Source: an uncultured Erysipelotrichaceae bacterium (lineage in GTDB: Bacteria > Bacillota_I > Bacilli_A > RF39 > UBA660). Taken from it: a DNA stretch of 35,553 bases. Positions 5,468 to 35,553 of this stretch are shown one piece after another. Below the pieces are notes generated by a model. The model worked only from the letters and a program-made list of their open reading frames with translations, did no database searches and was not told where the DNA came from. A program made the translations under genes and the position numbers. The DNA lies in the NCBI GenBank assembly GCA_902798815.1, contig CADBYH010000015.1, positions 30,898-66,450 on the forward strand. Direction: 5' to 3'. The stretch's first letter is position 1, and every line of letters begins with the position of its first letter.

Positions 5468-7792
5468 CCATTTCCAATCTTTTACATATGGCATATCTTC
5501 ACCATATTCAGAAATATATTGTTTATGTTTTTTTAGCATATCTTCACACCATTTTATTAATACTTCACTTGTTTTACTATATCTTGGTATTTCTCTTAAT
5601 GTTGCAATTACAAGATGGAATCTATCTATTTCATTCTGGACTCTTATATCAAATGTTGTAGTAATTGTTCCTTCTTCTTTGTATCCATGAACATGAAGAT
5701 TTCTATTATGTCTTTTATATGTTAATTGATGGATTAATGATGGATAACCATGGAAGTTAAAGATTATAGGTGTATTTTTTGTAAATATTTCATCGTATTC
5801 ATCATCAGCCATTCCATGTGGATGAGTATCTGCTGACTGTAATTTCATTAAGTCAACAACATTTACAACTCTTATTTTTATACCTTTTACACTTTTTCTT
5901 AATATATCAACTGCTGCAAGTACTTCTAAGGTTGGAGTTTCTCCAGAACATGCTAGAATAACATCTGGTTTTCCTTCATCATTTGATGCGAAATTCCAAA
6001 CTCCTAATCCTTTTCTGCAATGAACTCTTGCTTGTGTTTTAGTTAACCATTGTGGTCTTGGATGTTTTGATGCAACTATAACATTGATATAGTTTTTACT
6101 TTTAATACAGTGATCAAAACATGATAATAAACAATTTGTATCAGGTGGTAAGTACATTCTTACAACATCTGCTTTTTTAGTTACTAAATGGTTTAAGAAT
6201 CCTGGATCTTGATGAGTATATCCATTATGATCTTGTTGGAAAACATGTGATACAAGTAATATATTTAAAGATGCAATAGGTGCTCTCCATGAAAGTTCTT
6301 TACTTACTTTTAACCATTTTGCATGTTGACTTGCCATTGAATCAATTATTCTTATAAATGCTTCATAACTATGAATAAATCCATGTCTTCCTGTTAATAG
6401 ATATCCTTCTAACATACCTTCACATAAGTGTTCAGATAAATATGAATCCATAATTCTACCGGTATTAGATAAGAACTCATCTTTTTCTAATATTTTATAA
6501 TTCCATGTTCTGTTTTCTGTTTCAAAAACATGATGGAATCTATTAGATAATGCTTCATCTGGTCCAAACATTCTAAAATTAGAATTATGCTTATTTAGTT
6601 TGAACACATCTCTTATGTATCTTCCAAGTTCTAATGTATCTTGATCAATTATTGCTCCTGGTCTTTTAATATCTATACAATAATCTTCCCAATTAGGAGT
6701 TTCTATTTCTCTTAATATTAATCCACCATTAGCATAACTTGATGATCCCATACATTTTGATACATCTGGTAACCAACTTTTTAATTCTTTAATTAGTTTT
6801 CCATTTTTATCAAACAAATTATCAATGTTATAACTTTTTAACCATTTTTCTAATAATTTTAAATTTTCAGGTTTATTTTTTGTTATTGGGATTGGAACCT
6901 GATGTGCTCTAAAACTTCCTTCTATTTTACTAGACATGTATTCTTTTGGTCCTGTCCATCCTTTTGGAGTTGTTAGAACAATCATTGGATAGTTACCTTT
7001 TCCTGATGCTTTAATATTTTTTATATCTTTTATAACTTTATCCATAACTTTTGCCATATCTTCATGCATTTTTGTTGGATTCTTACCACTGACAAAATAT
7101 GGTTTCCATCCATAACCATAGAAGAAGTCTTCTAATTCATCTTGACTCATTCTTCCAAATATAGTTGGATTCGAGATCTTAAATCCATTACGATGAAGTA
7201 TTGGTAATACTACTCCATCATATTTTCTATTTAAAAATTTATTAATATGCCAACTTGTTGCGAGTGGACCTGTTTCTGCTTCTCCATCACCTACTACACA
7301 GGCAGCAATTAAATCACTATTATCTAGTACTGCTCCGGCAGCATGTGCAAGACTGTATCCAAGTTCTCCACCTTCATGGATTGAACCTGGTGTTTCAGGT
7401 GCAACATGTGATGAAACTCCTCCAGGGAAACTAAATCTTTTGCATAGTTTTTTTAACCCCGCTTCATCTTCTGTTATTTCTGGATAAAATTTTGAATATA
7501 CACCTTCTAAATAATTATTCGCAATCATTGCTTGACCACCATGACCTGGTCCAGAAATATATATCATCTTTAAATTATTCTTCTTTATTACTCTATTTAA
7601 ATGCATATAAATAAAGTTTTGTCCTGGAGCTGTTCCCCAGTGCCCTACCACATTAGGTTTAATATCCTTCATTTCTAAAGGTCTTCTAAGTAATGGATTA
7701 TCTAGTAAATATAATTGGGCTACACTCAAATAATTCAACACTCTAAAATAATCATCCATTATTTTTATTTCTTTTTTGCTTAATGCAACCAT
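5453..7792 (-). CDS. xfp: Xylulose-5-phosphate/fructose-6-phosphate phosphoketolase
   Basis: This 779-residue thiamine-diphosphate enzyme splits xylulose-5-P (and often fructose-6-P) with phosphate into acetyl phosphate plus a sugar phosphate, the key step of heterofermentative sugar use. Diagnostic motifs are VGHWGTAPGQNF (~49-60), GPGHGG (81-86), HEGGELGYS (139-147) and the ThDP/Mg-binding GDGEAETGP (168-176). Length matches the family (~790-820). It has its own extended -10 promoter and terminators on both sides, so it is monocistronic. Acetyl phosphate would feed acetate kinase for ATP; no kinase gene is in this window. Confidence 0.96.
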   Translation of the reverse strand: MVALSKKEIKIMDDYFRVLNYLSVAQLYLLDNPLLRRPLEMKDIKPNVVGHWGTAPGQNFIYMHLNRVIKKNNLKMIYISGPGHGGQAMIANNYLEGVYSKFYPEITEDEAGLKKLCKRFSFPGGVSSHVAPETPGSIHEGGELGYSLAHAAGAVLDNSDLIAACVVGDGEAETGPLATSWHINKFLNRKYDGVVLPILHRNGFKISNPTIFGRMSQDELEDFFYGYGWKPYFVSGKNPTKMHEDMAKVMDKVIKDIKNIKASGKGNYPMIVLTTPKGWTGPKEYMSSKIEGSFRAHQVPIPITKNKPENLKLLEKWLKSYNIDNLFDKNGKLIKELKSWLPDVSKCMGSSSYANGGLILREIETPNWEDYCIDIKRPGAIIDQDTLELGRYIRDVFKLNKHNSNFRMFGPDEALSNRFHHVFETENRTWNYKILEKDEFLSNTGRIMDSYLSEHLCEGMLEGYLLTGRHGFIHSYEAFIRIIDSMASQHAKWLKVSKELSWRAPIASLNILLVSHVFQQDHNGYTHQDPGFLNHLVTKKADVVRMYLPPDTNCLLSCFDHCIKSKNYINVIVASKHPRPQWLTKTQARVHCRKGLGVWNFASNDEGKPDVILACSGETPTLEVLAAVDILRKSVKGIKIRVVNVVDLMKLQSADTHPHGMADDEYDEIFTKNTPIIFNFHGYPSLIHQLTYKRHNRNLHVHGYKEEGTITTTFDIRVQNEIDRFHLVIATLREIPRYSKTSEVLIKWCEDMLKKHKQYISEYGEDMPYVKDWKWEGFK

Positions 7793-34174: not shown

Positions 34175-34672
34175 TTATTTTTTTTGGAATTTTACTATTA
34201 TATTCATTTTATCTTTATATTCTTCTTGAATACTTCGCATTATTTTATTAGCAAGAGTTTTATCATGTTCATTTGATATACATACTACATCAATACTACT
34301 ATTATCAATTTTTGTAAAACAATCTAAATTAAATTCTTTTTTTAATTTTTTTTCATAGTTTTCTTCTTTTCCTTGAAGAGAATTATAATATTTTAATAAT
34401 TCATAGGTATTGTTTTTTTCTTCTGTTGACAGTTTTTCATTAGTTAGAGCATTTTCTAATGATTCTATTTTTTCTTTTCTTGAGTTTTCTTTACTTACTC
34501 TTAGTGCTGTTAAGGGAGATGATTCTTCAACTTTTGCGACTACTTGTTCTTCTTTAATTACTTTCTTTTGTACTTTTTCTAATACATCATTAGGTATTGT
34601 AACATAGTATATTCCTAAGATTAGTATTAGACTAAATAAAGTTATAAACCATAGGTTTTGTTTATTTAACAT
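34175..34672 (-). CDS. SpoIIIAH-like sporulation protein
   Basis: The 165-residue protein starts MLNKQNLWFITLFSLILILG, the same start-and-transmembrane pattern as SpoIIIAH (MLKKQTVW...), then a helical ALRVSKENSRKEKIESLENALT...LSTEEKNNTYELL region and a C-terminal ring-building motif-like fold with a Cys-containing LDCFTKIDN...DVVCISN. In Bacillus, SpoIIIAH in the mother cell binds SpoIIQ in the forespore. The start at 34672 has GGAGG 8 bp upstream; the frame from 34687 would include it. None of the other spoIIIA genes is next to it; the upstream neighbour is the retroelement-like repeat. Confidence 0.78.
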   Translation of the reverse strand: MLNKQNLWFITLFSLILILGIYYVTIPNDVLEKVQKKVIKEEQVVAKVEESSPLTALRVSKENSRKEKIESLENALTNEKLSTEEKNNTYELLKYYNSLQGKEENYEKKLKKEFNLDCFTKIDNSSIDVVCISNEHDKTLANKIMRSIQEEYKDKMNIIVKFQKK

Positions 34673-34706
34673 ATTATTAGCCTCCATTCACTAATATATA
34701 TGAAAA

Positions 34707-34734: not shown

Positions 34735-34739
34735 ATTAT

Positions 34740-34862
34740 CCGATTCGGAAAGCTGGAGCCAAACCGTAGCTAGAATTATTGGCATTATTGTTATTCCAAT
34801 TACCATTATTATTGACATTGGCAAAATTATTACTATTATTAGAATTGGCCGGGCGCAACCAC
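34740..34862 (-). repeat. Candidate DGR template repeat (TR)
   Basis: This 123-bp non-coding sequence is homologous to the end of the gene at 35211-35553. Both share GTGGTTGCGCCCGGCC at one end and CCAGCTTTCCGAATCGG at the other. In the gene's frame it is packed with AAT/AAC codons (~20), which is typical of templates for adenine mutagenesis. The frame is closed upstream by a TAG and the sequence before it does not resemble the gene, so this is not a second gene copy. By codon alignment, about 22 differences fall on template adenines and only about 3 elsewhere, apart from small whole-codon indels. Confidence 0.82.
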
Positions 34863-34999
34863 TGAACCCAAACCGAAGCCTAACCAACGGGTAACACATA
34901 ATTTTCATCAGTTTTCCTTATTTCAAATATATTATCCAAATATCTTTTGAAAATATTTTGAAATCATTTTTACTATTTATCTATCATATTTGATAATTA

Positions 35000-35033
35000 A
35001 CTCCATGAACTTTTACATAAAAGTTCATGGAGT
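35000..35033. terminator. Long perfect hairpin between the two repeats
   Basis: A perfect 15-bp stem (35000-35014 with 35019-35033) and a 4-nt loop. The plus-strand side has the more T-rich tail, but no plus-strand gene ends here. It could terminate the variable-repeat gene on the minus strand or be part of a structured RNA. Confidence 0.55.
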
Positions 35034-35055
35034 ATTATTCTTATTATTTTATTTT

Positions 35056-35181
35056 CACAAAGGCCTTATTCTAAGTCCTTTGTGGGAAAGGGTGGTTTCT
35101 GCTTGTCCTCACTTCCGTTCGGAGCGCGCTTTAGAAACCTTTCTTTATCGGTATTGGGCTAGTCCTCATCCTTAGTATGAG
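35056..35181. ncRNA. Candidate structured RNA between the variable and template repeats
   Basis: The gap 34863-35210 has no convincing gene. Part of it is clearly richer in GC than its flanks and forms nested hairpins. 35056-35084 pairs CACAAAGG with CCTTTGTG, with a second 4-bp step CTTA/TAAG. 35086-35100 pairs with 35133-35143 (GAAAG and GTTTCT with AGAAAC and CTTTC, one bulge), enclosing TCCG/CGGA at 35114-35123. 35165-35181 pairs CTCAT with ATGAG. The strand is uncertain; minus would place it between the gene and the template. I cannot match it to a named RNA. Confidence 0.45.
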
Positions 35182-35210
35182 ATTTGCTTTTATTAGATAA
35201 CTTGTTCTAA

Positions 35211-35553
35211 TTACCCGATTCGGAAAGCTGGGGCGACACCGTAAGTATCACCGGCACTAGCGTCACCCCAACCACAACGACCACCACTAGTGACAGCGGC
35301 AAAACCATAACTAATATTAGAATAGGCCGGGCGCAACCACCACCATGTGTTTGAGGAATTATATTGTTTGATTGCTTTATCTAGATTTGTTCCATTCCTA
35401 CTACTTGTTGAATAAGTTACTCCATTATTACTATAATACTCTAATTGATGTGACGTTCCATATGCTGTGTCAAAGAAATGATATTGTCCATCATCAGTTC
35501 CATATACTTCTTCTGATGATAGTAAATATAATTTATCTGTTGTTGTAAAGTTT
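35211..35553 (-). CDS. C-terminal part of a hypervariable (DGR target-like, DUF6273-like) protein
   Basis: 113 codons enter from the right edge and end at TAA 35211. The sequence reads DKLYLLSSEEVYG, then FDTAYGTSHQLEYYSNNGVTY, then WWWLRPAY and a Gly/Ser/aromatic-rich stretch, ending YGVAPAFRIG. The WWLR...GVxPAFRIG pattern is that of the C-type-lectin-like DUF6273 type of domain found in repeated, diversified surface proteins of gut Bacillota. The last ~42 codons are the variable repeat. The start and any signal peptide lie beyond the window. Base composition in the repeat is GC-richer than in neighbouring genes. Confidence 0.82.
   Translation of the reverse strand, partial: NFTTTDKLYLLSSEEVYGTDDGQYHFFDTAYGTSHQLEYYSNNGVTYSTSSRNGTNLDKAIKQYNSSNTWWWLRPAYSNISYGFAAVTSGGRCGWGDASAGDTYGVAPAFRIG
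35215..35340 (-). repeat. Candidate DGR variable repeat (VR)
   Basis: A 126-bp copy of the template-like repeat at the 3' end of the hypervariable gene. Where the template has AAT/AAC, this copy has TAT, ATT, GGT, GCT, ACT, AGT, CGT, GAC or GAT, while GCC, TTT, GTC, TGG and TAC positions are kept. Net length is one codon more than the template. A few non-adenine changes near the end (TTG/GTC, GCT/GCC) suggest that the direct donor may be a sister template. Confidence 0.82.

Follow-up and report, generated by a model that had tools for sequence, protein, structure and literature searches.

Locus organization

The stretch of DNA considered here, termed the window, consists of 35,553 nt from an uncultured Erysipelotrichaceae bacterium, and its right edge is the end of contig C15. 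Near this edge are two related repeats that an initial annotation took for the template repeat (TR) and variable repeat (VR) of a diversity-generating retroelement (DGR). On the minus strand, in order from the contig end, there are the 3′ part of V1, a DUF6273 gene for a predicted surface protein; a stretch of higher GC content that includes a hairpin; a terminator-like inverted repeat; a stub of the accessory gene avd; an AAT-rich repeat; and spoIIIAH (Table 1). Beyond spoIIIAH, on the same strand, are a Germane-domain gene and then a gene for a PrsW-type protease. Both repeat copies are on the minus strand and are separated by 349 nt, close to the ~350 bp first estimated. The left, TR-like copy is at 34861-34736 (-) and the right copy is at 35339-35211 (-). 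The latter forms the end of an open reading frame of 113 amino acids that runs to the contig end, and is indeed the coding 3′ end of a gene; full-length homologs of V1 have 423-427 amino acids.

DGR sequence of a known kind is present at this locus, and it has apparently decayed. The locus is probably a remnant, in which a DUF6273 target is followed by the likely remains of a retroelement; recombination has apparently joined its TR to a VR 3′ end, with loss of the spacer RNA and reverse transcriptase (RT). A tblastn search of the window for an RT gives matches only at E ≥ 0.6, and the locus is therefore classed as a target plus remnant and not as an intact DGR. DUF6273 proteins are already known as DGR targets; the newer parts are the scar and a template match that crosses species. 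In what follows, G000 is the genome of the window, G006 is that of a sister species, L-numbers are records from relatives and P-numbers are protein homologs.

Table 1. Features at the right end of the window
Feature	Position	Strand	Evidence or remark
V1 target gene, 3′ part (113 codons), DUF6273	35211-35552	-	Pfam PF19789, E = 5.5e-9; runs off contig end
Variable repeat V1 with VR-type 3′ end (initiation of mutagenic homing site, IMH) CCAGCTTTCCGAATCGG	35216-35339	-	
Hairpin ~70 nt 3′ of V1 stop; 7-bp outer stem, tandem G-A mismatches, GGAA loop	35094-35139	-	Likeness to DGR target-site hairpin
Terminator-like inverted repeat, where the sister-species avd leader starts	35000-35033	-	Within block 80% identical to G006
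avd stub: final 11 codons and stop (MISKYFQKIFG*), ~518 nt of avd gone	34932-34967	-	Two alignment blocks against G006
TR 5′ flank, non-coding	34862-34931	-	In 243-column block (avd end through TR), 81% identical to G006
Template repeat TR-A, AAT/AAC-rich part	34775-34861	-	
3′ end of VR type on TR-A, in place of a TR-type end; not followed by spacer RNA	34736-34774	-	Last ≥30 nt identical to V3 end on C40
spoIIIAH-like gene, chromosomal neighbour across scar	34175-34687	-	PF12685, E = 9e-11; synteny

Adenine-specific differences between the repeats

The differences between the two copies are concentrated at left-copy adenines, as was first claimed from a hand alignment. When V1 is aligned exactly with the left copy up to position 34775, with one hand-placed 6-nt gap (two codons), 22 of 33 adenines are changed and none of the 53 other bases (Fisher p = 1e-12). 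The ungapped comparison of the first 86 nt gives 23/33 adenines and 5/53 other bases. Over the whole repeat, with two codon gaps, the counts are 23/41 and 5/81 (p = 2e-9), and all five non-adenine changes are 3′ of 34775, in the last 39 nt.

Two other VRs in the same genome are cleaner adenine tests than V1, since no gap is needed. V2, on contig C9, differs from the window TR at 16/33 adenines and 0/53 other bases. V3, on contig C40, differs from the TR of the sister species at 23/37 adenines and 0/68 other bases. The better-fitting template was chosen for each of the two, and that of V3 belongs to another species. Substitutions confined to TR adenines, a DGR property, are found in V1 (with one gap), V2 and V3. 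With the VR read as template, the adenine changes are 0/17 and 0/14. The 61 changes over the three TR/VR pairs consist of 42 A>G, 10 A>T and 9 A>C. Ahead of the VR, 3 of 215 nt are different between the V1 and V2 genes; within it there are dozens of differences. The V2 gene (G000 C9:53894-54719) is without 34 residues found in P0002 just before NFTTTDKLYLL, which is either an in-frame deletion or a misassembly.

Relatives display the same bias when their own VR is compared, ungapped, with their own TR. Adenine changes number 20/38 in L115, 19/41 in L120, 14/34 in L121, 16/36 in L174 and 24/37 in the G006 VR on C37, with non-adenine changes of 0/59, 0/56, 0/65, 3/63 and 4/68, respectively. In the ungapped scan against their own TR, the VR of L178 and the G006 VR on C39 are below the cut-off.

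The left repeat as a probable TR-VR chimera

The assignment of the two copies to the TR and VR of a DGR stands in part. It agrees with adenine-only changes in three VRs, with an RT and a predicted Avd-fold protein beside the TR in relatives, and with variation of homologs mainly at Asn codons. The left copy is, on the other hand, not the working template of the right copy: two codons and the whole 3′ end differ, there is no spacer RNA and no RT, and avd is a stub of 11 codons.

In the window TR, the sequence GGTTTGGCTCCAG is followed by CTTTCCGAATCGGATAATAA, as in V3, whereas the RT-linked records have ATT(T/C)C(T/C) at this place. This TR-type end is found in 11/11 RT-adjacent TR records, i.e. 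G006 and ten others that were selected by their RT; they represent ~9 distinct TRs, as L176, L177 and L180 are near-copies. The difference expected in a DGR between the IMH at the VR end and the IMH* at the TR end is lacking in the window TR, which carries a VR-type end. The three codons before this end resemble template codons of G006 mutated at adenines (ACT AAC AAC to TCT AGC TAC). From these sequences, the window TR end is inferred to be a crossover between a TR and a VR. GTC GCC is the ending of V1 and V2, as against TTG GCT in the window TR. The two VRs therefore would derive from the template TR-A, of which an intact form was not found. In title listings and the opening parts of abstracts of open-access papers, fusion of a TR with a VR end was not found described.

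Alignment with G006 indicates what is gone. The avd leader and the avd end are kept and ~518 nt between them are missing; the TR is kept, with nothing behind it. The G006 avd product ends in LVSKYFQIIFE, which corresponds to the stub peptide of Table 1, although the tblastn trace of avd at 34938-34985 is weak (E = 4.2). A reading of 35040-35205 as the DGR spacer was considered and dismissed, since spacer and RT sequences leave only chance-level BLAST traces in the window. Broken or shortened machinery is found in G000, G031, G159, G040, G471 and G375.

The G000 assembly is 75.7% complete. As far as it extends, it has no RVT_1 domain by profile search and no match to the sister RT, so that the absence of an RT from the genome, which the initial annotation named as a finding against a DGR, holds to that extent only. 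The spacer motif is also absent from this assembly with up to two mismatches allowed. Matches with two mismatches in G027 (two) and G028 (one) are probably due to chance, with no RT or avd within 1.5 kb. Among IMG/VR sequences, no relative of the sister-type RT was found by the patterns used, nor was the hairpin core, and none of three exact IMH matches has a DUF6273 tail. Plasmids did not match the TR, and Rfam gave sub-threshold matches only.

DGR components in related genomes

RVT_1 is present in 60 of 147 relatives, a count of RTs of whatever kind. At E ≤ 1e-20, 28 of 386 family genomes contain a relative of the G006 RT, with identities of 57-73% in eight. A DGR-type RT linked to a homologous TR is thus present in relatives. 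The gene order in the sister species is accessory gene-TR-RT. In G006 the RT lies 276 nt past the TR; the range over the 11 TR-bearing records is 266-339 nt, and the stretch between is conserved. L179 is an additional RT record that begins inside this stretch. In a PDB sequence search with the RT, retron-type and group II RTs rank first.

The accessory open reading frame is upstream of the TR. A structure model from a 62-member alignment best matches S23-family proteins and the Avd of BPP-1, with 2gsc and 2rld ranking above the Avd entries, and the family is predicted to have the Avd fold, the accessory component expected of a DGR. The protein is not named by Pfam or PADLOC, has a weak CheZ match only in NCBIfam (E = 0.039) and one weak PDB match by sequence (E = 0.15), and Foldseek alone gives nothing at E < 0.001.

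Two further observations concern individual records. In L178, a 7.7-kb contig, the target gene and avd start are directly duplicated around the TR and RT (109-1485, 5734-7110). In L120 and L121 the RT genes match the family over approximately the first two-thirds only, though their TR/VR differences are confined to adenines, which would suit a recent end of activity or an assembly error.

The hairpin behind the variable repeat

The hairpin apex behind V1 has the sequence TCC-GA-AC-GGAA-GT-GA-GGA. The same apex, with changes, is found behind the VR in nine other loci, e.g. TAC-GA-GT-GGAA-GC-GA-GTA in L178, and L121 has a variant with a different loop. A hairpin downstream of the cis VR, as in DGR targets, is therefore present at V1 and at these loci. 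Minimum-energy folding gives the apex in eight of nine loci folded, the exception being L176. An outer stem of 7-14 pairs is beside the apex in 11/11. In seven of these it is reached by 0/200 shuffles, and in L120, the window, L201 and L176 by 6, 20, 25 and 41 of 200, respectively. With ≤1 mismatch, 6 of 386 family genomes contain the hairpin core, each at a single place, and in three of them this is on the RT contig. The V1 structure fits the GRNA-loop hairpin of DGR targets (PMC3240598).

Variation of the target proteins

By Pfam the V1 target is a DUF6273 protein, and most of the domain has a predicted local distance difference test score (pLDDT) <50 in the structure model. On the question of a C-type-lectin fold, a PDB sequence search with the DUF6273 target gave no match.

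Protein homologs vary mainly at Asn (AAY) codons. In an alignment of mixed species (110 of 121 homologs, the others being dropped by a last-letter filter; 5263 found in all), entropy at the 15 Asn columns of the TR is 2.5-3.7 bits, against <0.8 bits at most of the remaining VR columns. Exceptions among the non-Asn columns are 239, 245, 249 and 257. P0050 has a gene body nearly that of V3 but a VR that differs solely at TR Asn/Thr codons, and this indicates that V3-type genes vary. The VR of P0003 is identical to that of V1, and two residues shortly ahead of it differ. This single case is as expected for a frozen target, and it counts against variation among individuals at template adenines.

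The target of this system has a membrane-like N-terminal segment; in some relatives it begins like a type IV pilin instead. Family DGR targets that begin with the type IV pilin methylation motif are found in L174 3719-4891 (PF07963), L178 109-1485 and P0116; the last carries the source annotation PilA.

The V3 repeat fits the G006 TR at 68/68 non-adenine sites, although C40, over 3.9 kb that exclude the VR gene, has 74% identity to G006. The VR of G006 itself on C37 fits the G006 TR less well. The simplest reading of these sequences is that a DGR was shared or exchanged; strong conservation of the template is the alternative. That C40 is a stray G006 contig was rejected, as it is only 74% identical to G006.

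Chromosomal position

A spoIIIAH match is present in 27 relatives, and the gene order was read in nine. A methionine gamma-lyase gene (PF06838) is directly upstream of spoIIIAH in seven of the nine; one has an extra gene between the two and another has a different gene. In G000 the lyase gene occupies C8:186-1439, and between it and the contig end is the beginning (32 codons) of a target gene. Extension of the contig to the right, where an RT was to be sought, thus does not obviously lead to one; the gene that usually precedes spoIIIAH is at the end of C8, with a V1-type gene start behind it. Both sides of the island appear to be accounted for, so that the RT is probably not simply past the window edge. 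The C8 gene start is the same as in P0002, P0003 and P0050. The tail is that of V1 in P0003 but of V3 type in P0050, and this start alone thus does not tell which target it belongs to; gene order favours V1. A ~115-nt sequence (G000 C40:4638-4752; ends of C3, C10 and C38) is repeated at contig ends, also in other genomes of the genus, and is perhaps a mobile repeat that breaks assemblies.

Origin of the locus

By the mechanism known from BPP-1, an RT with its Avd partner would have copied the TR RNA with misreading of adenines, and the cDNA would have replaced the VR. A complete VR-avd-TR-RT cassette may formerly have been situated between the methionine gamma-lyase gene and spoIIIAH, and recombination of the TR with the end of another VR, together with an internal deletion in avd, would have removed the machinery. 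V1 retains the IMH and the downstream hairpin, so that an RT supplied in trans could still act on it. Priming of cDNA from the orphan TR would fail for lack of the spacer.

Several observations weigh against decay by recombination. The assembly is incomplete and all three target genes are at contig breaks, so that an intact DGR may be missing from the bin, and V3 points in the same direction. The link between C8 and C15 depends on synteny, and the C8 gene start, being common to P0050, could belong to another target. The hairpin stem of the window is not significant alone, and the hairpin is absent within 200 nt behind V2 and V3. It is also absent within 200 nt behind the G006 VR on C39 (that on C37 has only ~85 nt of downstream sequence); gene conversion from a cis target is one option for V2, V3 and the C39 repeat. 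With respect to the chimera, the TR-end pattern doubled as the search pattern of the script and was loosened once, for L174, and the A-only match of the last codons depends on three positions. As no intact TR-A was found, the chimera was judged from the TRs of G006 and the ten other records. Misassembly of the window is possible, and the broken genes in other metagenome-assembled genomes may be assembly errors.

These points lead to three other accounts. An intact, working DGR, with its RT beyond the assembled part of the genome and with the window TR as template in trans, is unlikely. That such a DGR acted in this lineage follows from V3, an A-only copy of a G006-type TR; the assembly is incomplete, and loci without RT whose targets are diversified in trans are in print (PMC10907252). 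The window TR nevertheless has neither spacer nor TR-type end, and the BPP-1 spacer recruits RT-Avd and primes cDNA (PMC12875486); the GTC GCC ending of V1 and V2 also does not correspond to that of the window TR. Still less probable is an assembly artefact, with a TR wrongly run into a VR gene end by the assembler and the RT missing at this join. The TR and VR end share only ~6 nt (AATAAT) at the join before diverging (by eye), the deletion in avd is another break, distinct from this one, and the far side of the join continues straight into a spoIIIAH leader resembling those of relatives, even though this is a metagenome assembly in which C15, C9 and C40 all break within DUF6273 genes. Very improbable, and already disfavoured, is the absence of any retroelement, gene conversion having shuffled the members of a DUF6273 gene family that has a silent 3′ cassette. 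The 14 tblastn matches to the V1 tail in the genome (E ≤ 10), mostly other DUF6273-like genes, would suit such a family. The changes are adenine-confined and one-directional, though, and the left copy adjoins an avd stub and matches a TR that neighbours an RT.

If the locus is a decayed DGR, it offers a sequence-level picture of how a machinery of mutation may be lost and its product nonetheless persist: the target still has its homing signals, the accessory gene is reduced to a stub, and the template passes into a VR end. The 0/68 non-adenine changes of V3, set against a flank divergence of 26%, indicate that adenine-blind matching can trace which DGR wrote a gene, even with that DGR missing from the assembly. 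On a broader and tentative proposal, chromosomal DGRs of this bacterial family are lost when their own template recombines with the repeats written from it. What is left would be solo-TR scars (TR::VR chimeras) and a frozen surface protein that was once hypervariable; intact cassettes bearing one and the same template would meanwhile pass from species to species, and targets in one species would thus preserve the template of a different one.

Relation to known DGRs

With the prototype DGR of Bordetella phage BPP-1 (PMC3240598, PMC12875486), there is a likeness in the avd-TR-spacer-RT order of the sister species, the predicted Avd fold, and the IMH with a downstream GRNA-loop hairpin. The window differs in having no RT or spacer, an avd stub only and a TR with a VR-type end, and its hairpin is ~70 nt behind the stop as compared with 4-34. 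Degenerate DGR loci of Thiohalocapsa PB-PSB1 are likewise without RT, and their targets are diversified in trans now or formerly (PMC10907252). There, transposons and arrays resembling miniature inverted-repeat transposable elements (MITEs) replaced parts of the loci, whereas in the window there is apparent TR-VR recombination and a deletion.

The nearest described DGRs are those of Faecalibacterium phages; Pioen, Roos and Taranis carry DGRs (PMC11792537, PMC5883640). The phage RT is 41-42% identical over 84% to the sister-species RT. The targets of Roos and Pioen are DUF6273 proteins with the VR at the C-terminus, like the window target. These DGRs are phage-borne, whereas the window locus is among chromosomal genes (spoIIIAH, lyase) and its cassette has apparently decayed. 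In Pioen the accessory open reading frame is 31% identical, GCCCAC-GGAA-GTGGGC is found behind the VR, and the 17-nt spacer motif GGACGCTTCTTGCATGG is identical. This motif is between the TR and RT of Pioen (L197 3029-3414) and is a possible marker of this DGR clade.
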